Source: Geminocystis sp. NIES-3708 (GTDB lineage Bacteria; Cyanobacteriota; Cyanobacteriia; Cyanobacteriales; Cyanobacteriaceae). Taken from it: a stretch of DNA of 64,000 nt. The number at the start of each line of letters is the position of its first letter. The stretch's first letter is position 1. The notes under the pieces were generated by a model that saw only the letters and a program-made list of their open reading frames with translations, had not been told where the DNA came from and searched no databases. The stretch covers positions 1,177,656-1,241,655 of the forward strand of contig NZ_AP014815.1 in the NCBI RefSeq assembly GCF_001548095.1. Direction: 5' to 3'. This document shows positions 16,228 to 38,723 of the stretch, in pieces. Made by a program: the position numbers and the translations under genes.

Positions 16228-17541
16228 ATGAATCAGTCAAAAAAACCCTCCAAAAAACTAATACCTGTATTCAAATCAGTTTTAACTACTTTAGCCACAG
16301 GAAGTTTAATTACTTTTTTTTCCCCTTCCATGATTCGAGCAGAAATGACTGATAGCCCAAAAATGGTTGTAGATGAAGTTTGGCAAATAGTTAATAGTGA
16401 ATTTGTTGATCGTGATTTCAATCAAGTGAATTGGCAAAACAAAAGAGAAGAACTTTTAAAGCAAAATTATAATAGTAAAAAACAGGCTTATCGTGCCATA
16501 AATCAAGCCTTAAAAGAATTAGGTGATCCTTATACTCGTTTTCTTCCCCCCGAACAATTTGAAGTGCTTACCAGTCAAACATCAGGAGAAGTATCAGGGG
16601 TGGGTATTCGTATTGCGATCGATCCTCGTACCCAAGATTTATATGTTGTGGATGCCATCAAAAAATCTCCTGCCGCCGAAGCTGGTTTACAAAGAGGCGA
16701 TCGCATTGTCAGAATTGATGGTAAACCAACAGCATTAATGAATTTAGAACAAGCCTCAGAAGCCTTAAAAGGAGAATTAGGTTCACAGGTAAGTATTGAA
16801 ATTTCGAGAGAAAAAAAACCAGCTTTTGAAGTTAAAATCACTCGTAGTGAAATTGAAGTTCCTTCCGTTGACTTTAGCTTGAAAAAAGAAGGAGAGTTAA
16901 ATGTTGGTTATATCAAATTAGATGAATTTAGTTCTTTGGCGGCACAACAAATGAAACAAGCCATTGATGAACTACAAAAACAGAAAGCCTCAGCCTTCGT
17001 TTTAGATTTAAGAGGCAATCCGGGTGGGTTGTTATTTGCTAGTGTTGATATTGCAAGAATGTGGATGTCTCAAGGGGAAATTGTTGACATTGTTGATCGT
17101 CGTGGCGGACATCGTACTTATCAAGCGAATAACTCTGCTATTACCGATTTACCTTTAGTCGTATTAGTTGATGGTAATTCTGCTAGTGCTAGTGAAATTT
17201 TAACAGGTGCTTTAAAAGAAAACAAAAGAGCTACTATTGTAGGTACAACAACTTTTGGAAAAGGACTCGTACAATCTGTTCATTCTTTGTCTGATGGTTC
17301 AGGATTAGCGGTGACAATCTCTCGTTATTATCCTCCTAGTGGCATGAATATCAATAAAAAAGGTATTTCACCAGACATAGTTCAAAATCTTACGAGAGAA
17401 CAAGAGTATCTTCTCAGTCAAGATCCTTCTTTATTAGCCACCAAAGCTGATCCTCAATACTCAAAAGCGATAACAGTATTAAAAACAAGAACCAATATTT
17501 CCACTGAAACTTCTTCTAATTCTACAAGTTTGTTACAATAA
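16228..17541 (+). CDS. Carboxyl-terminal processing protease (S41 family)
   Basis: A 437-residue protease with a signal peptide (to about ...SMIRAEM), a PDZ domain (~residues 115-205, SGVGIRIAID and SPAAEAGLQRGDRIVRIDG) and a catalytic core. The dyad is visible: Ser320 in NSASASEI and Lys345 in TFGKG, spaced 25 apart as in known D1 processing proteases. FVLDLRGNPGG is also characteristic. Cyanobacteria have CtpA, which matures photosystem II D1, and paralogs CtpB and CtpC; which one this is cannot be decided from sequence reading alone. Location is lumen or periplasm. Confidence 0.93.
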   Translation: MNQSKKPSKKLIPVFKSVLTTLATGSLITFFSPSMIRAEMTDSPKMVVDEVWQIVNSEFVDRDFNQVNWQNKREELLKQNYNSKKQAYRAINQALKELGDPYTRFLPPEQFEVLTSQTSGEVSGVGIRIAIDPRTQDLYVVDAIKKSPAAEAGLQRGDRIVRIDGKPTALMNLEQASEALKGELGSQVSIEISREKKPAFEVKITRSEIEVPSVDFSLKKEGELNVGYIKLDEFSSLAAQQMKQAIDELQKQKASAFVLDLRGNPGGLLFASVDIARMWMSQGEIVDIVDRRGGHRTYQANNSAITDLPLVVLVDGNSASASEILTGALKENKRATIVGTTTFGKGLVQSVHSLSDGSGLAVTISRYYPPSGMNINKKGISPDIVQNLTREQEYLLSQDPSLLATKADPQYSKAITVLKTRTNISTETSSNSTSLLQ

Positions 17542-25461: not shown

Positions 25462-27192
25462 ATGAGTTATTTTATGGATAGACGTGCCTATGCTGAAACT
25501 TATGGCATTACGGTAGGCGATCGCCTTCGATTGGCGGATACAGAATTAATGATCGAAGTTGAGAGAGATTACACAGTTTACGGCGATGAAGTGAAATTCG
25601 GTGGCGGAAAGGTAATTCGGGATGGGATGGGGCAATCGGGCATTTCAAGGGCAGATGGTTCAGTAGATACGGTTATCACTAACGCTTTAATCCTAGATTG
25701 GTGGGGAATAATTAAAGCAGATGTGGGTATTAAAGACGGTAAAATTTTCAAAATTGGTAAAGCAGGAAACCCTGAAATTCAGCCCCAAGTGGATATTATC
25801 ATCGGTGCGGTAACAGAAGTTATCGCTGGAGAAGGAATGATTTTAACTGCCGGTGGTATTGATACCCATATCCATTTTATTTGCCCTCAACAAATTGAAA
25901 CCGCTCTTGCATCTGGAATTACAACTATGATTGGTGGTGGTACAGGACCAGCTACAGGCACAAATGCAACCACTTGCACCCCCGGAGAATGGCATATATA
26001 CAGAATGCTAGAATCTGCTGATGCTTTTGCTATGAATATCGGTTTTTTAGGCAAAGGTAATAGTAGCCAACCAGAGGGATTAATTGAACAAGTTAAAGCG
26101 GGTGTAATGGGGTTAAAATTACATGAGGATTGGGGTACAACTCCTTGGAGTATAGATACTTGTTTAAGTATAGCTGATGAATATGATGTACAAGTTGCTA
26201 TTCATACCGACACTCTAAATGAGGCGGGATTTGTGGAAGATACCATTAACGCTTTTAAAAACAGGGTGATTCATACTTATCATACGGAAGGGGCAGGAGG
26301 TGGTCACGCACCAGATATTATTAAGGTATGTGGGCAAATGAATGTTTTACCTTCTTCAACTAATCCTACTCGCCCTTATACCATGAATACCCTCGAAGAA
26401 CATCTCGATATGTTGATGGTATGTCATCATTTGGATAGAGGTATTCCTGAAGATGTCGCTTTTGCTGAGTCTCGCATTCGCCGTGAAACCATTGCTGCTG
26501 AAGATATTTTACATGATTTAGGGGCTTTTAGCATGATTGCCTCAGATTCTCAAGCTATGGGTAGAGTAGGAGAAACTATTATTCGCACTTGGCAAACCGC
26601 CCATAAAATGAAGGTACAAAGAGGACATTTGAACCCCCCTCAATCCTCCCTTATCAATGGAGGAGATATGAATGATAATTTTCGGGCGAAGCGTTATGTT
26701 GCTAAATATACTATTAACCCTGCTATTACTCATGGTATCGCTGATCATGTGGGTTCGATCGAGGAAGGTAAATTAGCCGATTTGGTGTTGTGGAAACCTG
26801 CTTTTTTTGGGGCAAAACCTGAGTTAGTCATCAAAGGTGGCATGATTGCCTATGCACAAATGGGAGATGCTAATGCTAGTATTCCGACACCGCAACCGAG
26901 ACACTCTCAACCGATGTTCGGTAGTTTTGGAGGTGCGATCGCATCTACATCTTTAACTTTTGTTTCTCAAGCATCTTTAGATTTAGATATTCGAGGAAAA
27001 TTAGGATTACATAAGCCAACGATTGCAGTAAAAAATACTCGTAATTTAAGTAAAGCAGATATGAAGTTAAATGATTATGCACCGAATATGGAAGTTGATC
27101 CTGAAACCTATGAAGTACGAGCAGATGGAGAACTTTTAACTTGCGAACCTGTTGATGTATTACCAATGGCACAACGTTATTTCTTGTTTTAA
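25462..27192 (+). CDS. ureC: Urease alpha subunit
   Basis: A 576-residue catalytic subunit of nickel urease, which hydrolyses urea to ammonia and carbamate. The nickel ligands and carbamylated Lys regions are intact: [47 protein letters not shown]. The flap segment [20 protein letters not shown] is also intact. Residues 389-403 ([15 protein letters not shown]) replace a shorter loop of about eight residues between KMKVQRG and NDNFRAKRY. The bases match a dispersed repeat, so this looks like an in-frame repeat insertion. No ureA, ureB or accessory genes are in the window. Confidence 0.97.
26632..26667 (+). repeat. Palindromic repeat inserted in frame within ureC
   Basis: The bases AACCCCCCTCAATCCTCCC, then TTATCAAT and GGAGGAGAT, form a 6-bp stem (TCCTCC with GGAGGA) with a 9-base loop. 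They align with the minus-strand repeat at 2051-2085 (AACCCCCC-TAA-CCCCCC-TT-...-GGGGG). The match of both C-runs and the G-run, and the extra length relative to the family, support insertion of the same repeat family into the coding frame. Confidence 0.55.
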
Positions 27193-27522: not shown

Positions 27523-29376
27523 TTACCATACCGAGCCGGGGGCAGATATGGGTATTTTTTGAGTTGTGGGGGGATTTTTTTTAGGTGTATAATTAGATGG
27601 ATTTTTATTCAGATTTTTATTGTTATTATTTGTAGCTTTTGACGTTTTTTTAGATCTATTTTGAGTCTTTTGAGGTGCAGTATATTTTACAACAGGGGAA
27701 GAAGGTGATGTATATGTTCTTAATTGCACTTTTTCTTTTGCAATTCTATCAGCTTTAGCTTTAGCTTGAGCCTGTAAATTTTGAATATTTTGATTTATTT
27801 TAGCAATATTTTCTTCTGTTTCAGTAATTTTATTACTTACTTGAGAACTTATTAAGAGATTAGAGTTAAATTCATTTAATTTTACGTTTATTTGTTCCCA
27901 TTCTAATTTTAAATTTCGATTTTTTTTAATAGTATTAGCTGTTGAAGTTTTTTCTTTTAAGTTATCCATGTTTTTGACTAATTCTTGAAACTCTAAATTA
28001 GTTTGATTTTCTGTTTGAATTTTTTTATCAATTACAGTTAATTTATCTTGATATATTTTTAATTCTTGCTGTGCTTGATCATAAACTTTAACATCATTAG
28101 GAATATTTTTAAAATCTTTAATTATTTCTTGCATATCTTGTTGCTGTAATGTTAAATCTTCTATCTTTTTAATATTTTTTTCACGAGTCATAACTTCTTT
28201 TCCATCGACTAAAATATCATTAAAAATTTCTTGATATTGTTTATCTCTAGCACAGTTATCTAATCTTTTACAAATAGCATTGATATGGGGTGCTTGTAAA
28301 ACTAAAGTGATGATAGTTAAACTAAAGACTATTATTCCAGATAAAAGTATAAAATTTTTAAAAGATTTTTCTTCTGTATTTTTAAAAGTATTTTTCTCTA
28401 TTTTTTGCTCAAGATTTTCATGAATAACTGTATTGTCATTTTCAGTCTTAGTTATATTTTGTAATGGTATAATAAGATGAGTTTTCTCATTATCTAGTGT
28501 AGAATAATTATCAATACTTGTCTTATTCATCTTTTCCAAATCTGCTAAAACATCCATCGCTGAATTATATCTATCTTGAGGATATTCTTCTAGCATTTTT
28601 TCTAAAATTAATCTCAATTCTTCACTAAAATTAACATACTCTATCCAAGATTTTTTTCGACTAAAACTATTAAATAATATTTCTGGCTCTTTTCCTGTTA
28701 ATAAGACTAAAGCTGTTGCACCTAAAGCATAAATATCACTATTTTGATAACATTCTCCTGTGGTTAATTGTTCTGGAGCAGAATAGCCTCTTTTACCAAT
28801 TATTGTACCTTTTTTTTCTTTATAACCATGATTAATAATCTCTGTCATTTTTTCTTTAACACCGCCAAAATCTATCAAAACAGGTTTATTAATTTCAGTA
28901 GAATAAATAATATTATCAGGAGATATATCTCGATGAATAATTCTATTGTGATGTATATAATCTAATACTATAAGTAGATCTTTTAAAAATAAGACAATTT
29001 CTGATTCTGAAAATAATTTTTGTTCTATTTTTTTTGTATAAAGTAATTGCCAATAGTTATCTCCTTTAATGTATTCTTGTACAATAAAAAAATTATTATT
29101 TTCTTGAAACCAATCTAAAAATCTAGGTATTTGAGGATGCTTTAATTTTGATAAAATAGATGCTTCTTGATTAAATAAATTTAAAGATTTCTGATTAAAT
29201 TCTGTCTTAATATTATCATTCGGTAAAAATTCTTTTAATAAGTATTGTTGAAAATTTTCTTGAATATTTTCTATTAAATAGGTTCTACTAAAACCGCCTT
29301 TCCCTAATTCTTTAATAATTCGATATTTATTTATTAAAATTGTGCCGTTAGATAAAGAAAGATTCATATAGATCAT
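27523..29376 (-). CDS. Transmembrane Ser/Thr protein kinase with C-terminal Trp tail
   Basis: A 617-residue kinase. The N-terminal catalytic domain has the G-loop GKGGFS (25-30), Lys48, Glu71, HRD at 148-150, Asn155, DFG at 169-171 and APE near 200, so it should be active. A single membrane helix lies at ~342-360, followed by a Cys-containing extracytoplasmic part (residues ~369-375) and a coiled coil (~395-540). The tail is basic and Pro/Asn-rich and ends SAPGSVW. The protein ends in Gly-x-x-Trp like two neighbours. It is the last gene of a minus-strand run of secreted peptidases, 28 bp after a DUF4344 protein. Phosphotargets are unknown. Confidence 0.92.
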   Translation of the reverse strand: MIYMNLSLSNGTILINKYRIIKELGKGGFSRTYLIENIQENFQQYLLKEFLPNDNIKTEFNQKSLNLFNQEASILSKLKHPQIPRFLDWFQENNNFFIVQEYIKGDNYWQLLYTKKIEQKLFSESEIVLFLKDLLIVLDYIHHNRIIHRDISPDNIIYSTEINKPVLIDFGGVKEKMTEIINHGYKEKKGTIIGKRGYSAPEQLTTGECYQNSDIYALGATALVLLTGKEPEILFNSFSRKKSWIEYVNFSEELRLILEKMLEEYPQDRYNSAMDVLADLEKMNKTSIDNYSTLDNEKTHLIIPLQNITKTENDNTVIHENLEQKIEKNTFKNTEEKSFKNFILLSGIIVFSLTIITLVLQAPHINAICKRLDNCARDKQYQEIFNDILVDGKEVMTREKNIKKIEDLTLQQQDMQEIIKDFKNIPNDVKVYDQAQQELKIYQDKLTVIDKKIQTENQTNLEFQELVKNMDNLKEKTSTANTIKKNRNLKLEWEQINVKLNEFNSNLLISSQVSNKITETEENIAKINQNIQNLQAQAKAKADRIAKEKVQLRTYTSPSSPVVKYTAPQKTQNRSKKTSKATNNNNKNLNKNPSNYTPKKNPPTTQKIPISAPGSVW

Positions 29377-29404
29377 TAATAACTTTTTATTTAATTATAC
29401 TTAT

Positions 29405-30370
29405 TTACCAATAAATTCCTCGTTCAGATAAACCTCTAGGATTATTAGCAGGAGCAGGTGACATGGGATAATTATTTTTAATAGCATAATGAGGTAATAA
29501 TAATCGATTCCAACTTTCATTTTTTTTGACAAATTCCTGTTGACATTTTGCCGCTCTAATTTTTAAGTGATCTTCTGATGCAATATCTTCTTCATCCAAT
29601 AAATTAAACTTTTCTATAAATATTTTTTCATATTTTTCAGGATCACTACCATAAACAAAACATACTAAATTAAATAGTCTTTTATCATGAGGAGTATGTT
29701 CATCCCAACTGGGACTTTTTTCGCTTATTTTGTATAATAGTTCATAGTATTCTGAAGAATCTAAAATTACTTCTCCCGCAAAATTTTGATCATGATTTCG
29801 ATATAACATAACAGAGGCAAATTCATCGACAGTATCTTCTTCTTGCCCTACAGCATTTAGTGGTAGAATATCAATTAAAGCGTGTCCTAATTCATGATAA
29901 AAGGCAAAAATTGTTTCGTTAAGGGATTTTTCCATTGCTTTTTCTATAGGATATTGAGCATTTTCATGAAAAAGAACTAAATCATAAGCTGTATTTTCAT
30001 AACAAATAATAATTTCTTTTTTTTCAGCATTCCAATAAGCATTAGGATCTCCACAATCTTGAAAAACAATAGCTATATTATCTCTCATAATTAATCCTGA
30101 ATTATTTAAGTAATCAGTGATTTGATTAAAAATTTTACTTTCAACCAAAATTTGTCTTATTTCTTCATAAGAATTAGTAGGTTCATATTTTAAGATAAAT
30201 TTACCAATTCCTTGATTATTTTTAGGAAAGTTTTGCTTAGTATAACTTTGTATTGGTTTAGCAAAAACATTTTTATTATTTTTAAAAAAGATAAAATTTG
30301 AGGAAAATAAAATAGTAAAGAGGAAAGAAATGATAAGTTTAAAATATGAACTTTTATTTATTTTATTCAT
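29405..30370 (-). CDS. DUF4344 zinc metallopeptidase, exported
   Basis: A 321-residue protein with an N-terminal hydrophobic signal (residues ~10-30). The zinc motif HELGH (His159, Glu160, His163) is in FYHELGHALIDILP, with EDTVDEFASVMLY about 15 residues on as the likely third ligand region. These fit the DUF4344 metallopeptidase family. Two Cys pairs (FQDCGD, IICYEN) could form disulfides. It ends SERGIYW, sharing a C-terminal Gly-x-x-Trp with the kinase and COP23 proteins next to it. It begins 11 bp after the trypsin-like gene, in one operon-like run. Confidence 0.85.
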   Translation of the reverse strand: MNKINKSSYFKLIISFLFTILFSSNFIFFKNNKNVFAKPIQSYTKQNFPKNNQGIGKFILKYEPTNSYEEIRQILVESKIFNQITDYLNNSGLIMRDNIAIVFQDCGDPNAYWNAEKKEIIICYENTAYDLVLFHENAQYPIEKAMEKSLNETIFAFYHELGHALIDILPLNAVGQEEDTVDEFASVMLYRNHDQNFAGEVILDSSEYYELLYKISEKSPSWDEHTPHDKRLFNLVCFVYGSDPEKYEKIFIEKFNLLDEEDIASEDHLKIRAAKCQQEFVKKNESWNRLLLPHYAIKNNYPMSPAPANNPRGLSERGIYW

Positions 30371-30381
30371 GGTATTAAATA

Positions 30382-31239
30382 TTACTTAAAATTAGTTAAA
30401 TCATGATTACTTTGTTTATTAAACTTTGGGGCAAGGCGTAAAAAAGTTTTAATGGGAATTGCCCAACTAGATTGACTCATTTCTTCTTTTTGTTGTGGAG
30501 ATGCAATACTACCATTCTCAAATATATAAGGGTTTCCCCACGCTGGATATTTATGTCTTCCATTAATACCAATAATTTCTTTTTTACTATTAAATAAAGG
30601 ACCTCCACTCATGCCTTTTTGAATATCATTACTATAACCAATTTGATATCCTCCTCTAAAAGATAAATCACTAATAGAATTAATTCGCCCACGAGTAAAA
30701 GTAAAATTATTATTAGTCAAATTATCAGGTTTATAAGGAAAACCCGCCGCATAAACAACTTCATCGATGACTGGAATCGATAATTCTGAGAATGAAGCTA
30801 TTTCATAATTATTTTGACTTTGAAATTCTAGTACTCCTAAATCATAATTTTGAAAATTAAATTCTTTAACAATTTTTGCTTGATAAGTTTCACCATCAAA
30901 GGTGATTATTTTATAAGATTGATTTTGATTACCAAACAATAAAACATGATCATTGGTTAATACTTGATAACTATTATTATTTTTATTAATTAAAATACCT
31001 GAGCCTGAATTTTCACCTGACAATACTTTAACAGTAACTTTTTTGGCGTAGATTTCTATTTCTTCTTCTTTTGATGTTATATTAAAATTTTCCCTTTGCT
31101 GTAAGCTAGATGGATAGATCGGTACTTCTTTGCATTCAATTCTGGTTTCAACGCTTTTAACGGGGAGAATATATTGAGTAAAAATACCTCCAAAAAAGCA
31201 AGTTATACCAAATAAGCTCATAGCTAAAATTTTATTCAT
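30382..31239 (-). CDS. Trypsin-like serine protease (S1 family), membrane-anchored or exported
   Basis: A 285-residue protein with an N-terminal hydrophobic segment (residues 3-25). The catalytic triad is visible in order: His in LTNDHVLLF, Asp in NYDLGVLEF and Ser in KGMSGGPLF. It is a compact chymotrypsin fold without a PDZ domain, unlike DegP/HtrA proteases. It is tightly linked (11 bp) to the DUF4344 gene. It could process partners outside the plasma membrane under kinase control; this is inference. The C-terminus ends LTNFK and does not carry the Gly-x-x-Trp tail. Confidence 0.9.
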   Translation of the reverse strand: MNKILAMSLFGITCFFGGIFTQYILPVKSVETRIECKEVPIYPSSLQQRENFNITSKEEEIEIYAKKVTVKVLSGENSGSGILINKNNNSYQVLTNDHVLLFGNQNQSYKIITFDGETYQAKIVKEFNFQNYDLGVLEFQSQNNYEIASFSELSIPVIDEVVYAAGFPYKPDNLTNNNFTFTRGRINSISDLSFRGGYQIGYSNDIQKGMSGGPLFNSKKEIIGINGRHKYPAWGNPYIFENGSIASPQQKEEMSQSSWAIPIKTFLRLAPKFNKQSNHDLTNFK

Positions 31240-31318
31240 AACATCGCTTTTTTTGAGACGAGAGCATTTTTTAGCAACAAAACTGATTTATTAAATATTA
31301 CTTATTACTTATTGTCAT

Positions 31319-31981
31319 TTACCATTTTATGCCCGGTGCAGAATTAGGTTGTTTTCCAGTATTTGAAGGAGCAACGATAGGTTGTTGATTTAACCCTGTA
31401 TTATCAATAGGTGAATTCTCGGAAAGATTTTTTGAAATTCTGGGGGCAGATTCAATATAACTGACTAAATTCAGTGCAACTGATCCTTTTTCAGTTTTGA
31501 CTAAATTACTTTGTTTTTTAAGGTTATTTTGACCTCCAGAAGAACCACTCAACTGCATAGAAGGACCACCCGCACCATCTCTAGTATTATCAATTTCTGC
31601 TAATACTTGGGCGGGATTTTGATCAGGACGCAAAGTTAAGAGAACATTATTACCAGAGCGATCGCAATCAGTTCCAGCACAAATAACATTATAGTTATTA
31701 ACTCGTCCAGCCACTAAATAACGGGGTTGAAAATTATTCATTCTCTGGGTAACTTCTAAACATCTTTGCATAGGAGTGTAAGGTCCTTGAAAATAATTAC
31801 TTTTCCATTTAAAAATTTCGACGATACCCCCTTGAGTTTCAACGTAGGTAGTAGGATAATTGTTATTATCTACAGAACATTCAAATTGAATAGATTGTGC
31901 TTGACTGGGAGAAGCAAATCCCAAAGAAGTACTAATTAGAACTCCTGAAATGATTGATAGATAGATTTTGTTCGTTGACAT
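31319..31981 (-). CDS. COP23 domain protein, secreted
   Basis: A 220-residue protein with a signal peptide (to about ...SPSQAQS). The domain at ~residues 30-135 begins with a Cys-containing strand (FECSVDNNNYPTTYVE), has FKWKSNYF and TPMQRCLEVTQRMN, then LVAGRVNNYNVICAG. This matches the cyanobacterial COP23 family, named for a circadian-oscillating protein in Cyanothece. Four Cys suggest two disulfides. The remainder is Ser/Asn/Gln/Pro-rich, ending NSAPGIKW, nearly the same as the kinase end (SAPGSVW). It is 79 bp upstream of the trypsin-like gene. Confidence 0.82.
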   Translation of the reverse strand: MSTNKIYLSIISGVLISTSLGFASPSQAQSIQFECSVDNNNYPTTYVETQGGIVEIFKWKSNYFQGPYTPMQRCLEVTQRMNNFQPRYLVAGRVNNYNVICAGTDCDRSGNNVLLTLRPDQNPAQVLAEIDNTRDGAGGPSMQLSGSSGGQNNLKKQSNLVKTEKGSVALNLVSYIESAPRISKNLSENSPIDNTGLNQQPIVAPSNTGKQPNSAPGIKW

Positions 31982-32019
31982 AATTTTAATTTGGAAAATT
32001 TAGATAGTAATGTTAATGA

Positions 32020-33060
32020 TTAATTGAGATAACGATTTAAGTCATCTTGAGTTGTCCCAGTTATAGGGAATACTTTTAAGCCAGATAAAGTTCCCCCCCC
32101 TTCTCGTTGATAATTAAAAATCTCATATCTTAAAGGAGTTGGTTTTGCCGTCAGAGAAGTTTTACCTTTTGCTTTTAAAGTTTCTGGGGGATTTTTTGCC
32201 ATTAAAGCATTTATCTGTTGAGTGCGTTTTTCAGGAGCAGGATGGCTACTACCTTCTGATTGTGCTCCGGGCATTCTTCCTAAAACATCCATTACTGCAA
32301 TACAACCATTAGGATCAAATCCAGCCGTTACACTGTAAATATAACCCGTTTCGTCAGCCTCCAATTCTTGAGATTGACTGATTTCCATTAAACGCTTATT
32401 ATAATTAATCTCCGCTTCTTGTTCAATTTTGGCTTTAATGGCTTCAATATTTTTGGCTTTTTGTTGACTTGCACCACCAAATAATGCACCCCCCAATTGA
32501 AGTAATCCTCCCCCAATACCGCCAACTTGTTGACCAACGGTAGCGATACCAGTACCTACACCAGCACCGATTAAAGCCTGAGTTTGAGCATCTTGTTCCG
32601 CTATAATTTTATTTCTTTCCGCTTTTTCAATTTCTTCTTTTCTTGCTTGTTCTTGTTTTGCCGGACCGTAGCCTAAATGTTGTTTTACATGATGTCCCAT
32701 TTCATGGGCAATGGCACAAGCTAAAGCCGAAGCATTACCTTCTAATTGATCCATCAAACCTGCTTCAAAAGTTAGTAAGTTGGTATCAGAAGCGAAGGCA
32801 TTGACAGTATAGTTTGGAGTAACAACGATACGCCAAGGTTTATTATCTAAACCATTCGCTCTGGCAATTTTATCAACGATGGCATAAACGACAAAATAGT
32901 CTTTTGGTAATTCTTTTTGTGCTTTTTGTAACGGTGTTTCTGACACGGGGGGGGGAGTCGGTTTCGGCTTTGGTTTAGCGAAAGCCAACAATGGATTGAA
33001 TAATAGAGATACGAACAATAAACTACCAATCAAATTCCCTGATTTTCCTCTTTTGCTCAT
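32020..33060 (-). CDS. M48 family metallopeptidase, exported
   Basis: A 346-residue M48 (Ste24/HtpX/LoiP-like) protease with a signal peptide followed by a Lys-Pro-rich linker (KPKPKPTPPP). The zinc motif HEMGHH (His119, Glu120, His123) and a downstream ELEADETGYIYSVTAG Glu ligand are present. Between them is a Gly-rich helical insertion (residues ~165-200). Close relatives act in periplasmic and outer-membrane protein quality control. It lies 38 bp upstream of the COP23 gene in the same direction. The HPAPEKRTQQI segment near the end is also typical of the family. Confidence 0.93.
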   Translation of the reverse strand: MSKRGKSGNLIGSLLFVSLLFNPLLAFAKPKPKPTPPPVSETPLQKAQKELPKDYFVVYAIVDKIARANGLDNKPWRIVVTPNYTVNAFASDTNLLTFEAGLMDQLEGNASALACAIAHEMGHHVKQHLGYGPAKQEQARKEEIEKAERNKIIAEQDAQTQALIGAGVGTGIATVGQQVGGIGGGLLQLGGALFGGASQQKAKNIEAIKAKIEQEAEINYNKRLMEISQSQELEADETGYIYSVTAGFDPNGCIAVMDVLGRMPGAQSEGSSHPAPEKRTQQINALMAKNPPETLKAKGKTSLTAKPTPLRYEIFNYQREGGGTLSGLKVFPITGTTQDDLNRYLN

Positions 33061-33147
33061 GGTATTATTTATTTTTGATTAATCTTATTTAGGCACAATT
33101 ATAGCTCAAGGCAATAGAATTATGAATGTAACTAATTACAGAAACAA

Positions 33148-33690
33148 TTATTTTATGGATTGAGGAAACGGAATATTTTTCAGGCTACCCAAAACTCCCT
33201 CCAGTTTTTGATAAATTTCCATTAAGCGATCGCCATCAAGATGAACTTCGCTCGTGGGATAATTTTCAGTTATTTCCATAATACTAAGATCATTATTTTT
33301 CAATGCCGATGTAACCACCGCACCACGCAAAGATTCACGACTAGCTCTTTGACTCGGAGTAGTAATCACCTCAGAAAAACCATCTAAAATAACCCCTCCA
33401 AAAGGACTATTAAGAATTTGTGAGAGCATAACTCCATTGACGGGAATTTTACGGCAAAGAGTATTTTTGACATTATCAGGTTTTTGATTAGCTAACCTCA
33501 AAAAATAACTTAATGCCGAAGAAGTTTCTCCTGTTTCACAAAAAATACTGAAATCTGCCACAGGAATAGACTGTCGTAATATTCCATATTTAAGGACAAC
33601 AGTATCCGCCGCCATCGCCTTCGTTAAAGGATTCAAAATTAAAGTAATAGAAGTAGAAATAATCAAACAATAACGAGTTAAACAAAACAT
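33148..33690 (-). CDS. Stand-alone DUF1400 domain protein, exported
   Basis: A 180-residue protein from ATG 33690; an upstream TTG at 33723 is possible but less likely. A signal peptide ends near KAMAAD, followed by the DUF1400 pattern VVLKYGILRQSIPVADFSIF, then a series of helices (SALSYFLRLAN, SQILNSPFGGVILDGFSEVI). DUF1400 usually precedes an alpha/beta hydrolase domain in cyanobacterial proteins. No hydrolase follows here, and the gene stops at the end of the DUF1400 part. It is first in the minus-strand peptidase/kinase run, 87 bp before M48. Confidence 0.75.
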   Translation of the reverse strand: MFCLTRYCLIISTSITLILNPLTKAMAADTVVLKYGILRQSIPVADFSIFCETGETSSALSYFLRLANQKPDNVKNTLCRKIPVNGVMLSQILNSPFGGVILDGFSEVITTPSQRASRESLRGAVVTSALKNNDLSIMEITENYPTSEVHLDGDRLMEIYQKLEGVLGSLKNIPFPQSIK

Positions 33691-34215
33691 AGTTATGAAA
33701 AATAAAATTAATTCTAACGTCAATAATTAGACGCACACTAATTTTAAAAGTTCATAAATATCATTAACCATGTAGTATTGCTTTAATAACATAAAAGTTT
33801 TTTTGAGAATGTTAAATTATGTTACAAAAAAACAACTTTTATTTAATTAATACTAATAAGATCAAATATAATTTTAAAAGAGAATTTTTATTAATCTGAA
33901 ATTTACAAAAGTTGAAACCATAAATTGAGAATATATCAAAAAAAATTGATGTATTTTCCCCTAATCAGGACTGAAAATTATAAACTTAGTCAATAATTAA
34001 TAATATTAATAATTGATATATGTTTTATTGACAAATGTTAAAAATATAATAAAATTCAGTAAATATATGGAAAAATTTTCTTGTTCAGATTGACAAAGAT
34101 AAGGGAAAAAATTGAGATTATCTCTTTGTTTTCTTCGTATTTTTTCTTAACTTTATCAATTCTTAAAAATTTAACTTATTACAAATCACACTTATACTCA
34201 TAATAGGGAATTAAA
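33691..34215. other. Intergenic region upstream of the RTX surface protein
   Basis: These ~525 bp are very AT-rich and divergent between the DUF1400 and RTX genes. Apart from a candidate promoter at 34028-34055, no gene or hairpin was recognised. Confidence 0.5.
34028..34055 (+). promoter_or_regulatory. Candidate promoter of the RTX surface-protein gene
   Basis: A perfect TTGACA (34028-34033) and TAAAAT (34050-34055) are separated by 16 bases. This gives a leader of about 155 nt before the ATG at 34216. A second TTGACA at 34090 lacks a good -10. Confidence 0.45.
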
Positions 34216-37032
34216 ATGGCAATAACAATCAACGGTACTAACGGTCCAGATACCATAAATCCGGGATCTTTCAGTGATGACTTACTCATCTTCGGTTTAC
34301 TGGGAGACGATTCTATACAAGGTTCGATCGGAACTGATGCCATTGACGGTGGCGACGGTAATGATACTCTCTCTGGTAATAACAATGATACTCTTCTTGG
34401 AGGTGCAGGAAATGATAGCTTATTCGGTACAGGTACAATCACCATCGGGAATTATCTTGACGGTGGTAGTGGTGATGATACCATTAATTCTTCTACCAGT
34501 GGTAATGCAAGTATTTTAGTCGGTGGCATTGGTAATGATAGCTTATTTGCTAGTGGTGATATAAATAGTCTTGATGGTGGTACTGGCAATGATACTTTGA
34601 ACGCAAATGGCAATACAAATACTCTTGCTGGTGGTACTGGAGATGATACTTTAACTTCTTCTGGTACAACGAATACTCTTAGTGGTGGTACTGGCAATGA
34701 CACTTTAACGGTCACATCTGGTGGAACGAATACTCTTAATGGTGAAGACAATAACGATATTTTAACTTCTTCTGGTGGAACGAATACCCTTAATGGTGGT
34801 ACTGGCAATGACACGTTAACTTCTTCAGGTGGAACGAATACCCTTAATGGTGAAGACGGTAATGATAGTTTAACGGTCACATCTGGTGGAACGAATACTC
34901 TTAATGGTGGCAGTGGTAATGATACTTTAACTTCTTCAGGTGGAACGAATATCCTTGACGGTGGTATTGGCAATGATATATTAGTGGTGACTTCAGGATC
35001 TGGTCCTAGTACTTTGATCGGCGGTGCAGGAAGCGATAGCCTTGTTGGTAGTAATGCTCCCGGAAATCTTAATGGTGGTGCAGGAAGCGATACCCTTATC
35101 GGTGGTAGTAGTCCTGATATTTTAGACGGTGCTGATGGTAATGATTCCCTTATCGGTAATGCGGCACCTGATGCCTTTATTGGTAGTCGTGGGAATGATA
35201 CATTGATTGGTGGTGATGATAATGATATCGCCGATTATTCTAGTCTCTTGCAGCGTGTTACATTAAGACCCCAAGGAGTTCTTGCCAAAGACGGTGGTTT
35301 CGGGACAGATGTCCTTGATAGTATCGAAACTATTGTGGGTGCAACAGGACAAGATAACCTCATCGATGTTTCTAGTGCTGGTACTGGTATTACAATTGAT
35401 GTGAATCTGAGTTCGTCTTCTGATAATTTAATCGTATCTGGTCCTTTCTCTAGTACTTTCACCGTAACTAACTTCGTTGATGTTATTGGCACAAGTGGTA
35501 ATGATTCTATTACAGGTAGCACAGCGGCTAACGATTTACAAGGCGGTGCAGGAGATGACACTATCAACGGCGGTGCAGAAAATGACGCTATCAACGGTGG
35601 TGCGGGTACTGATAGCTTATTAGGTGGTGTTGGCGATGATACGATTACTGGTAGTGCTGGTAATGATATAATTGATGGTGGTGATGATAGTGATACCGCT
35701 AATTATTCTAGTCTTACTCAAGCAGTAACCTTAAGACCTCAAGGAGTACTCCTAAAAGGAACTTTAGGTACAGATACCCTTATTGACATCGAAACCATTA
35801 TTGGTGCCAATAACCGAGTTAACGTACTCGATGTTGCTTCCGCAGGTTCAGGTATTAGCATTAATGTTGACTTAGGTACAACAAATCCAGATAACTTAGT
35901 CGTTGCCGGTCCTTTTTCGGATACATTCACCGTTCGCAACTTTGTCAATGTCTTCGGCACAAGTGCTGATGATACTATTATTGGTAGTGCCGCTAATAAT
36001 AACTTACAAGGTGGTGCAGGAAATGATACTATTGACGGTGGTACTGGTGGTAATGATACTATTATTGGTGGAGCTGGTAATGATAGTTTAAGTGCCGTAA
36101 GCGGTAATAACTTATTTATTGGTGGTCAAGGTGACGATACGATTACTGGTGGCACTGGTAATGATACCGTTGATTACTCTACTTTAAGCAATGCTATTAC
36201 CGTTGAATCTCAAGGAGCAATTAATAAAGGTGCTTTAGGTACAGATACCGTCAGTGTAGAAACAATTATCGGTCCTACAGGTAAAATTAATGTCATTGAT
36301 GCTACTGGTTCTACTGCAAGTATTAATGTTAATTTGGCTACGACTACTAATAACTTAAGTGTTGACACAGTAGGTACTTTTACCGTTCGTAATTTTGTTA
36401 ATGTAACTGGTAGCACGGTTGATGATACAATTATAGGTAGTTCCAGTAATAATATTCTTTCTGGTGATGGTGGTGCTGATTCTATCGATGGTGGTACTGG
36501 TAACGACACTCTGTCGGGTGATATAGGTGCTGATACCTTAATTGGTGGTACTGGTAACGATAACCTTGATGGTGGCGATAATGATGATAGCTTAGTTGGG
36601 GGTACTGGTAACGATAATCTAGTGGGTAGTGCAGGAAATGATACCTTAATCGGTGGTGCAGGTATAGATATTCTTACTGGTGGTACTGGTACGGATATTC
36701 TTGACTACACAACGCTTACAGATTCCCGTTTAACTAACCTTGATATCATTACTGATTTTAGTGCTGTGGATGATGATATTCGTGTTTCTACGGCTATAAG
36801 TGCATTTAATGCTTTAGGCCCTGTTACCAGTCTAACTCAAACTGCTATTGGAGCGGTATTAACATCTGGTGTCTTTACTGCAGACAGTGCCGCAACTTTC
36901 ACATTTAATGGTGAAACTTATTTAGCCATCAATAATAACGTGGCTGGTTTCTCTTCTTCCACTGATGCCGTCATCAAATTTGGTGCATTATCAGATTTAA
37001 CTGGATTTGGCAATTCAAACTTTTTCGTCTAA
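34216..37032 (+). CDS. RTX-type calcium-binding surface protein with bluetail C-terminus
   Basis: A 938-residue protein without a classical signal peptide. Residues ~30-335 are RTX nonapeptides (GGxGxDxLx). At ~130-270 they alternate canonical turns (GGTGNDTLT) with degenerate SSGGTNTLN turns, giving 18-19-residue units. Then come three copies of a ~150-residue module (~336, ~492 and ~650; each with DYSxL, a QG[VA] loop and TFTVxNFV), separated by RTX turns. The end (FNGETYLAINNNVAGFSSST) matches the bluetail domain of putative cyanobacterial surface proteins. Type I secretion through a C-terminal signal is likely. No secretion genes are adjacent. A roles in adhesion or S-layer is inference. 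Confidence 0.88.
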   Translation: MAITINGTNGPDTINPGSFSDDLLIFGLLGDDSIQGSIGTDAIDGGDGNDTLSGNNNDTLLGGAGNDSLFGTGTITIGNYLDGGSGDDTINSSTSGNASILVGGIGNDSLFASGDINSLDGGTGNDTLNANGNTNTLAGGTGDDTLTSSGTTNTLSGGTGNDTLTVTSGGTNTLNGEDNNDILTSSGGTNTLNGGTGNDTLTSSGGTNTLNGEDGNDSLTVTSGGTNTLNGGSGNDTLTSSGGTNILDGGIGNDILVVTSGSGPSTLIGGAGSDSLVGSNAPGNLNGGAGSDTLIGGSSPDILDGADGNDSLIGNAAPDAFIGSRGNDTLIGGDDNDIADYSSLLQRVTLRPQGVLAKDGGFGTDVLDSIETIVGATGQDNLIDVSSAGTGITIDVNLSSSSDNLIVSGPFSSTFTVTNFVDVIGTSGNDSITGSTAANDLQGGAGDDTINGGAENDAINGGAGTDSLLGGVGDDTITGSAGNDIIDGGDDSDTANYSSLTQAVTLRPQGVLLKGTLGTDTLIDIETIIGANNRVNVLDVASAGSGISINVDLGTTNPDNLVVAGPFSDTFTVRNFVNVFGTSADDTIIGSAANNNLQGGAGNDTIDGGTGGNDTIIGGAGNDSLSAVSGNNLFIGGQGDDTITGGTGNDTVDYSTLSNAITVESQGAINKGALGTDTVSVETIIGPTGKINVIDATGSTASINVNLATTTNNLSVDTVGTFTVRNFVNVTGSTVDDTIIGSSSNNILSGDGGADSIDGGTGNDTLSGDIGADTLIGGTGNDNLDGGDNDDSLVGGTGNDNLVGSAGNDTLIGGAGIDILTGGTGTDILDYTTLTDSRLTNLDIITDFSAVDDDIRVSTAISAFNALGPVTSLTQTAIGAVLTSGVFTADSAATFTFNGETYLAINNNVAGFSSSTDAVIKFGALSDLTGFGNSNFFV

Positions 37033-37447: not shown

Positions 37448-38299
37448 TTATGTACAGGGGTTATGGAAAGGGAAAAATATCCAAGGAATAAAAATTAAAA
37501 TTAACCAGATTATTTGTTGCCAATTAAATGTAGAAAAATTAGTAGAATCATTTAATAAATTTTCAATTCTTTCCTCTAAACGACAGTTAGTAAAAGGACA
37601 TTCTAATTTAAATATTAATGGTTTTGGTACATTTATCGCTGCCTTTGTTACCATTAATAATGCTTCGGCAATTAATAAATAATCTACAGTTTTTGATGCC
37701 GTATTATCGGCTCTTAATTCTCTTAGTAGAAGTAAATTATTCCATAATTTTTCATTATTTGGTAGCCAGAATGTTAATCTTTCTAAATAAGACAACCAAA
37801 AGAAAAAGAATGGATCTTTGTGAATTTCATGGGCTGATTCATGGGCAATGACAGCATTTAAATGTTCTTCAGATAAAAGTTTTATTAATCCTTTACTGAT
37901 AACCAATTGCGATCGCCAAAAGCCAACTTGAGCCGCATAAGGAAAAGAAGTTTCTAAAATTTTAATATTTTTTCCATGCAGATTTTTTGAGGGGTATTCA
38001 TGGACTAATTTCGATAATTGATGAAGATCCCATGTTATTTTAATGAAAGTAAAAACAGAAAAAATTAAAAAAGAAACTGATAAATAATAACTAAATTTAC
38101 TCGCTTTTATCCCCCACATTTCCCCATGATAACCCATTAAAAAAACCGTAAAACAAGTCATAAATAAAAGTAAGGGAGGAAAACCAAATAAAAATAAAGA
38201 TAAACCCCACTTTTTCTGATATTTTATCCCTTTTAATTGACTAATTAATCGAATTCCATAAGCAATTAATAAAGCCGAAAAAATTAAGATAAAGTGCAT
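37448..38299 (-). CDS. M56 (BlaR1-type) membrane metallopeptidase
   Basis: A 283-residue protein with about four membrane helices and the gluzincin motif HESAHEIHKDP between helices. It is the M56 protease of BlaR1/MecR1 sensors, but there is no extracellular penicillin-binding domain; the protein ends soon after the last helix. It is translationally adjacent to the BlaI-like repressor gene (1-bp gap). In the classical system the protease, once activated, leads to cleavage of the repressor. The signal here is unknown. Confidence 0.88.
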   Translation of the reverse strand: MHFILIFSALLIAYGIRLISQLKGIKYQKKWGLSLFLFGFPPLLLFMTCFTVFLMGYHGEMWGIKASKFSYYLSVSFLIFSVFTFIKITWDLHQLSKLVHEYPSKNLHGKNIKILETSFPYAAQVGFWRSQLVISKGLIKLLSEEHLNAVIAHESAHEIHKDPFFFFWLSYLERLTFWLPNNEKLWNNLLLLRELRADNTASKTVDYLLIAEALLMVTKAAINVPKPLIFKLECPFTNCRLEERIENLLNDSTNFSTFNWQQIIWLILIFIPWIFFPFHNPCT

Positions 38300-38300
38300 T

Positions 38301-38723
38301 TTAGTTATTTTCCTCTCTTTGTTGACGAATTCTAGTTAAACGATCAGCAATAGCTTGTATTTGTTCTACACTAGCAGTATCTAAACTATCAGCAAAAGAA
38401 GCGACAACATCAGGATTACTAACTGCTAGAAAACTGTTTAATTGCTCATAAGATTGAATCGCTTGTGCTTGTTCACGAGAAATGAGAGGATACCAGTAAA
38501 AGGCACGACTTTTTTTTACATATTTTAACCAACCTTTTTTAGTCAATCGTTGTAAAACGGTCATCACCGAAGCATAGGCTAATTCTCGTTCGGGATCTGC
38601 TAAAATTTTTTCATGAATATCTTTAGCACTAGCACAACCTAAATCCCAAATAATCTCGACTACTTCTTGTTCTAAAAACCCTAATGATAATTTTTCAGGT
38701 CGGTATTTAGGTAAAAAAGACAT
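38301..38723 (-). CDS. BlaI/MecI-family transcriptional repressor
   Basis: A 140-residue winged-helix protein. LGFLEQEVVEIIWDLGCASA, followed by KDIHEKI, AYASVMTVLQRLTKKGWL and RAFYWYPLISREQAQA are typical of BlaI/CopY repressors. The C-terminal half is the dimerisation and protease-sensitive region. It is first in a two-gene operon with the M56 protease. A TTATAAA-AAC-TTTATAA palindrome lies 67 bp upstream and may be its operator. In cyanobacteria such pairs regulate varied targets rather than only beta-lactamase. Confidence 0.9.
   Translation of the reverse strand: MSFLPKYRPEKLSLGFLEQEVVEIIWDLGCASAKDIHEKILADPERELAYASVMTVLQRLTKKGWLKYVKKSRAFYWYPLISREQAQAIQSYEQLNSFLAVSNPDVVASFADSLDTASVEQIQAIADRLTRIRQQREENN

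Follow-up and report, generated by a model that had tools for sequence, protein, structure and literature searches.

The 64,000-nucleotide stretch of the cyanobacterium Geminocystis sp. NIES-3708 analysed here (NCBI RefSeq assembly GCF_001548095.1, contig NZ_AP014815.1, positions 1,177,656 to 1,241,655; hereafter the window) contains a run of six genes at 27523-33723, all on the minus strand, for a DUF1400 protein, an M48 metallopeptidase, a COP23 protein, a trypsin-like serine peptidase, a DUF4344 putative metallopeptidase and a Ser/Thr kinase. The list of open reading frames (ORFs) and their Pfam domains bear out the original prediction that these genes lie on one strand with gaps of 11-87 bp; from the DUF1400 gene to the kinase gene the gaps measure 87, 38, 79, 11 and 28 bp. 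The DUF1400 gene (33148..33723; PF07176) has a TTG start that gives the end at 33723, the previously stated end at 33690 corresponding to a shorter start. Between it and the M48 gene lies a promoter-like site, TTCATA-17-TATAAT (33098..33126, minus strand), a possible operon start that is one of 43 consensus matches in the region where 37 are expected. Our main finding, which formed no part of the original prediction, is that three non-homologous products of this run, the kinase, COP23 and DUF4344, have alike C-terminal ends, which we refer to as tags.

The M48 metallopeptidase (32020..33060; PF01435), which has a Sec-like N-terminus and lacks an aromatic tag, is followed by the COP23 protein (31319..31981; PF14218, 96 bits against a gathering cut-off of 27), which is probably exported and ends in SAPGIKW (31322..31342; SSPGIKW in a congener). 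The core of COP23 has a confident AlphaFold model that matches nothing in the PDB at E<=0.001, so that an inhibitor-like fold cannot be claimed for it. The trypsin-like peptidase (30382..31239; PF13365) is of HtrA type and untagged here, while its counterparts in other cassettes are tagged; its nearest PDB sequences of the trypsin family include DegQ, DegP, DegS and HhoA, no PDZ domain was found in the Pfam scan, and with 52.6 of 416 bits it misses the cut-off of the NCBIfam Do family. The DUF4344 protein (29405..30370; PF14247, 184 bits against a cut-off of 29.6) carries HExxH as HELGH, has no solved relatives at E<=1 and ends in SERGIYW (29408..29428; identical in the congener). The kinase (27523..29376; PF00069) consists of an N-terminal kinase domain (residues 18-275; 28552..29325), a transmembrane helix that is the single hydrophobic stretch in a Kyte-Doolittle scan (residues 342-360; 28297..28353), a presumably extracytoplasmic domain with a Cys pair and a coiled coil that has no Pfam match, a Lys/Asn/Pro-rich linker and the tag SAPGSVW (27526..27546). 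Family alignments place the Cys pair next to the transmembrane helix and show the catalytic loop HRDISPDN. This loop is peculiar to the kinase of the run: of the 20 closed kinase ORFs of the genome that were read, 16 show a catalytic loop, which is HRDxKPxN in 14 of the others and HGDLQHGN in one. The kinase also misses the NCBIfam cut-off for PASTA kinases (Stk1/PknB), with 118 of 450 bits.

A DNA pattern for APGxxW followed by a stop codon has two sites in the whole genome (4.04 Mb in 6 contigs), which are those of the kinase and COP23. Trp ends three of the five proteins from M48 to the kinase (binomial p 3e-6, for a motif spotted after the fact), against a background of 4/608 ORFs in 40 control stretches (2/307 in relatives, 2/301 in the own genome). 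These controls were 20 arbitrarily placed 20-kb stretches of genomes such as those surveyed below and 20 of the own genome.

The M48, COP23, trypsin, DUF4344 and kinase genes are a real five-gene cassette. The whole set occurs in one further genome, at locus L317 of a congener, in the order of the window and with identities of 86, 80, 69, 77 and 63%, respectively; the flanking genes differ, and no DUF1400 gene lies within 2.2 kb upstream. DUF1400 is therefore probably a neighbour, and we rejected it as a member, so that of the six-gene unit originally predicted five genes stand. Two loci in Crocosphaera metagenome-assembled genomes (L173, L189) have the first four genes, M48-COP23-trypsin-DUF4344, and M48 is the first gene in all three of these loci. 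Because a search for DUF4344 shows it to be absent from two other congeners, the five-gene set looks accessory. The own genome has one COP23 gene, one DUF4344 gene, five trypsin_2 genes and 19 Ser/Thr kinases above cut-off. GC content drops along the cassette, from 39% in the M48 gene to 36% in COP23, 29% in trypsin, 26% in DUF4344 and 25% in the kinase gene (window, 33%), hinting at different histories of these genes.

Partial forms of the cassette are far more widespread. We searched COP23 in 117 genomes of the phylum, of which 42 were positive with 124 matches, and took 58 COP23 stretches and two DUF4344 stretches, leaving out most long-type COP23 (about 260-300 aa); the search profiles were home-made from the window proteins, and the trypsin profile also captures trypsin-TPR proteins. 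At these loci, which were chosen without regard to trypsin, a same-strand trypsin gene lies within 500 bp of 44 of the 62 COP23 genes, and a kinase is present in 19/57 loci. Conversely, among the best 80 of 427 trypsin loci COP23 is found in 72 and a kinase in 37. The control stretches hold no COP23; those of relatives gave three trypsin-profile hits and five kinases, and those of the own genome two and none. Linkage of COP23 and trypsin is thus far above chance, and the neighbourhood analysis of COP23 genes that had been proposed as a check comes out positive. In four loci (L093, L094, L130, L177) single ORFs match both the trypsin and the COP23 profiles.

For the kinase the corresponding excess at cassette loci amounts to roughly a factor of two to three, as judged from a small control. 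The extracytoplasmic domain of the kinase matched in 50 of 388 genomes of the order at E<=1e-18; 40 stretches around stronger matches were chosen, 38 of which retained an ORF bearing the domain, and 23 of these 38 loci have COP23 or trypsin in the stretch. This recurrent linkage supports the pairing of intracellular phosphorylation with extracytoplasmic proteolysis in the original prediction, in which export and topology are predicted from hydrophobicity.

Other arrangements were seen around COP23. Six long-type COP23 proteins (L032, L037, L038, L041, L042, L043) end LNPxxFR-like, which is perhaps another C-terminal signal, and have no obvious trypsin in their 1.5-kb flanks when read by eye. 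Another kinase family, with ends like MINSLEIN, lies beside COP23-trypsin loci (L131, L135, L138, L143 and others); the one member scanned, that of L131, has a PsbP-like domain. A COP23-kinase pair (L089) is on a 34-kb plasmid of Nostoc sphaeroides (NZ_CP031944.1), and COP23 is found on three other cyanobacterial plasmids.

It had also been suggested that the run might be a conflict-type cassette. On such a reading the proteases would be effectors and the kinase their trigger. The distribution of DUF4344 is indeed patchy (11/292 genomes, nine of them above cut-off), the genes are AT-rich, and proteases predicted to be exported stand alongside a kinase. The PADLOC match of the kinase to PD-T4-6 (250 bits) is generic, because scores of 218, 232, 245, 304, 312 and 386 bits are reached by six further kinases of this genome, three of which outscore the kinase of the cassette. 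The five proteins match no vWA, MoxR or VMAP components in Pfam or NCBIfam, no recognised defence partner emerged among them from Pfam, NCBIfam and PADLOC-type scans, and most parts are predicted to be extracytoplasmic. Having found no evidence specific to a conflict role, and given the generic PADLOC similarity of the kinase, we reject a defence function as very improbable.

Shared tags recur in the cassettes of other genomes. With two duplicate loci removed and near relatives kept, Trp ends 37/148 COP23 proteins, 34/227 trypsins, 7/9 DUF4344 proteins (one further member ends in Tyr) and 4/61 general kinases of the cassette families, and other ORFs around cassettes end in Trp in 6/376 and 16/1022 cases, the latter including some exported neighbours that bear tags. 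Of the 80 named trypsin loci, 34 have one or more Trp-ending profile hits. In L141, L169, L199 and L207 the terminal Trp is found on COP23 as well as on both trypsins, and in Roseofilum acuticapitatum (L130) four consecutive genes are tagged (COP23 GGNVW, trypsins PNAIW and DGRIW, DUF4344 EYIW); immediately upstream of them lie two profile hits that lack a tag. Among five DUF4344 proteins with neither COP23 nor trypsin in their 1.5-kb flanks none has an aromatic end (the five exclude two broken matches and one below the cut-off). The general form of the tail is a Pro/Ser/Asn-rich linker followed usually by [LVIA]-W-COOH: among 115 distinct members that end in Trp, 95 have L, V, I or A at the penultimate position, and the linkers of these 115 are 3.2-fold enriched in Pro and also rich in Ser and Asn. 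Ends of a second class, which contain Cys (CPPILC, CPxGxPxWxC), are seen on COP23 in L049 (4894-8844), L145, L154, L182, L183, L185, L188, L195, L196, L200 and L209, in L049 on the kinase too, and trypsins with Cys-rich ends occur in L056, L059 and L158.

Most tagged proteins look exported, 84 of 92 Trp-ending COP23, trypsin and DUF4344 proteins having an N-terminal hydrophobic segment, and tags are also found on neighbours, namely on a papain-like protease in L149 (GWLW) and on CAP-domain proteins in L148 (SPIW) and L160 (NTLW). The tag might consequently serve in secretion or in sorting to the surface, as PEP-CTERM and other C-terminal signals do. The kinase with its transmembrane helix carries it as well (an internal hydrophobic segment is present in 21/23 Trp-ending kinase-type proteins), and so does a sensor in L051 in which the extracytoplasmic domain of the kinase is joined to WD40 repeats (by Pfam) and which ends in PPLW; ORFs in L321, L324, L326, L327, L334 and L341 resemble it in length and end (they were not scanned for WD40). 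With a kinase and a WD40 sensor that have a transmembrane helix among its bearers, the tag probably does not serve for release from the cell. Moreover, no hydrophobic helix or basic run comes after the motif, and the three tagged proteins of the window lack a PEP-CTERM-like C-terminal hydrophobic segment, their tags being the last residues. We consider a sorting signal improbable.

Within a locus the ends agree beyond the presence of Trp on one protein. After removal of loci with COP23 cores more than 70% identical, 95 of 153 loci were left, 86 of them with a partner gene; Trp is on another member in 20/25 loci with a Trp-ending COP23 versus 11/61 of the others (p 1e-7). When the four C-terminal residues of proteins from one locus are compared, their similarity gives z 5.4 (p<=0.0005; none of 2000 permutations reached the value). 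Where the terminal letter changes, it may change on several members together: to Tyr in Hyella L137 (COP23 VIY, DUF4344 PLY); to Phe in Tychonema-type loci other than L313 (kinase PLF, next COP23 NPLF or NQLF) and in the congener locus L348 (sensors CVF and CLF, COP23 SLF); and to Cys motifs in L049 (kinase CPPILCPE, COP23 ECPPILCD, CPPILCP and ECSPLLCD). In L312 COP23 ends in RREL and trypsin in LREL, with CPDFC on the kinase. Of the 38 loci with the extracytoplasmic domain of the kinase, 24, several of them near relatives, have a sensor with an aromatic end; COP23 is present in the stretch of 17 of these versus 2/14 of the rest (p 0.002). The tags of the kinase and DUF4344 are also conserved between the window and L317. 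In the kinase the last eight residues are 88% identical and the preceding 52 columns 33%, in DUF4344 88% and 71%, while in the untagged trypsin the last eight residues are 12% identical and the preceding 52 columns 79%; conservation of the end is clear for the kinase and weak for COP23.

Altogether, these findings favour a model, to which we give a probability of roughly one half, whereby the five genes make up a cassette for proteolysis and signalling in the cell envelope, with extracytoplasmic C-terminal tags that are read by a common partner. In our model, COP23 and the peptidases would be exported, and the kinase would span the inner membrane, its catalytic domain facing the cytoplasm and a sensor built on a disulfide and a coiled coil projecting outwards. 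The export signals, the single transmembrane helix of the kinase and the Cys pair next to it would place the tags outside the cytoplasm. There the tag, a flexible-linker end with a hydrophobic residue and Trp (Phe, Tyr or a Cys motif at other loci), would be recognised by the common partner, the leading candidate for which is a PDZ-bearing envelope protein; this partner would bring the proteases and COP23 together with the kinase sensor, and proteolytic or ligand events at the complex would lead to cytoplasmic phosphorylation. That soluble exported enzymes and a membrane sensor have the tag in common suggests that it is read in the periplasm rather than used for release.

Several observations weigh against this model. 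No profile hit ends in Trp in 46 of the 80 named loci; Trp is also the last residue of two further kinases encoded in the genome away from cassettes of this kind (L113, L117); the cassette DUF4344 of L100 ends in GIRWGD and its COP23 in FQIVH; and the letters vary among the members of Tychonema-type loci (PLF, SLW, PVW, REW). Same-strand general-profile kinases show no Trp agreement with COP23 (0/7). The contrast against L317 is small for COP23 (75% in the last eight residues, 67% before), and the untagged M48 keeps its end as well (88%, 81% before). On the tree, COP23 proteins with a terminal Trp cluster together (14 changes versus 22.9 when shuffled), so that part of the concordance of tags is shared descent, and a phylogenetic independent-pairs test with only six pairs on supported branches (on average 1.7 the same way and 0.2 opposite) is not significant at this small size. 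We also rejected the possibility that the tail docks on the domain of its own protein, as the COP23 tail (AlphaFold, block predicted local distance difference test (pLDDT) values of 42-48) and that of a tagged trypsin (pLDDT 51-63) are predicted to be disordered and undocked. The clustering on the tree, the pairs test and the equally conserved M48 end would all suit an ordinary accessory operon in which like C-termini arose by descent or gene-end exchange and have no role. Such an origin would leave unaccounted for that the tag is common to non-homologous proteins, that the kinase keeps it while its linker diverges and that variant letters co-occur in separate lineages; we rate it as quite improbable.

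Candidate readers for the common partner of our model come from the PDZ domains of the envelope. C-terminal aromatic peptides of outer-membrane porins are classic ligands of HtrA PDZ domains, and such a peptide activates DegS; PDZ ligands are C-terminal, hydrophobic-aromatic and borne on flexible linkers, and so are the tags. The cassette trypsins are of HtrA type, a PDZ domain is present in all three other trypsin-domain proteins of the genome that were scanned, and a CtpA-like gene with a PDZ match lies in the window at 16228-17541, about 10 kb from the cassette. Given that the HtrA-like trypsin of the cassette lacks PDZ, that porin peptides provide a precedent and that the three other HtrA-like proteins scanned have the domain, the leading candidate is a PDZ protein encoded away from the cassette. 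The same facts would agree with tags that are recognised by envelope proteases bearing PDZ domains (HtrA/HhoA/HhoB or CtpA) and act as a signal for turnover or activation, not for assembly. Seven loci without Trp tags have long PDZ-bearing trypsins by home-made profile (L135, L140, L143, L175, L183, L185, L188), two of which (L140, L183) have PDZ and TPR repeats by Pfam. A PDZ-bearing trypsin and a Trp tag were never seen in one locus, however (0/62 Trp-tag loci versus 7/92 others, p 0.04; after de-duplication 0/36 versus 3/59, p 0.29, not significant). The CtpA-like gene is found in the stretches of few loci (L317, L332, L197) and also in one control stretch, and it would be odd, though not impossible, for proteases and their sensor alike to bear a signal for degradation only. 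We therefore regard a turnover or activation signal as unlikely. These results count against our own model too: CtpA, which adjoins the cassette in L317, is not enriched across loci and was rejected as a linked reader, as was a PDZ domain inside the cassette, seen only in loci without Trp tags, and no reader was found among the CtpA-like and PDZ-bearing trypsin genes examined. Where COP23 and both trypsins end in Trp (the four loci named above), the reader would itself be tagged or lie outside these families.

If the model of tags read by a common partner is extended to all classes of ends, it becomes possible to speculate, if only tentatively and with some doubt, that cyanobacteria use a C-terminal address code in which the matching tags of a locus bind one dedicated reader and build a locus-specific protease-receptor complex, different classes (xLW, PLF, VIY, CPPILC, REL) keeping paralogous complexes apart. 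A docking code of this kind would be a compact way of building extracytoplasmic protease-receptor complexes that is invisible to domain annotation, and the tag would offer a handle for finding further members and the reader.

Elsewhere in the window, an RTX nonapeptide-repeat protein of 938 aa is encoded divergently from the cassette (34216-37032, plus strand), and at 37448-38723 (minus strand) an M48/M56 BlaR1-like peptidase gene adjoins a BlaI/penicillinase-repressor gene; the protein after COP23 in locus L034 (701-1123) is very similar by eye to this peptidase. A match to the Rfam 5' ureB small RNA (RF02514) at 25618-25903 (minus strand) is antisense to a urease gene and probably scores through conserved urease coding sequence and not as a true small RNA.

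Among known systems, DegS/HtrA with porin peptides resembles the cassette in its HtrA-type domain and in using a short aromatic C-terminal peptide as an envelope signal; here, in contrast, the window protease lacks PDZ, the tagged trypsins themselves bear the peptide and the membrane partner is a kinase. With PknB-type membrane kinases the kinase of the cassette shares an N-terminal kinase domain, a single transmembrane helix and a predicted extracytoplasmic sensor, from which it differs by HRDISPDN in place of HRDxKPxN, by its Cys-pair/coiled-coil domain without Pfam match and by the tag. COP23 (PF14218), known since 1996 as a circadian oscillating membrane protein of Synechococcus RF-1, is described as a diel-regulated membrane protein without known function, and the parts of this literature available to us mention neither its linkage to trypsin nor a C-terminal tag (PMC6315102, PMC10153697, PMC11131595). 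It now gains a testable context of trypsin-like proteases, a metalloprotease, a membrane kinase and a shared terminal tag, of which, as of the cassette, we found no description in the portions of the open-access literature consulted. The multi-peptidase conflict systems of Kaur et al. 2020 (PMC7159879), over-represented in multicellular bacteria, likewise have trypsin-like peptidases in operons and adaptors common to their components. As far as the consulted text of that paper goes, they include no COP23 or DUF4344, and what is shared in the cassette is a terminal peptide, predicted to lie outside the cytoplasm; COP23 is also unmentioned in the corresponding part of a paper on trypsin-centred conflict systems (PMC10907252). 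Finally, the PEP-CTERM/exosortase system, from the sections of its description consulted (PMC1569441), similarly places a short C-terminal signal on unrelated exported proteins, while the tags described here are followed by neither a C-terminal transmembrane helix nor a basic run and form the very end of the protein.

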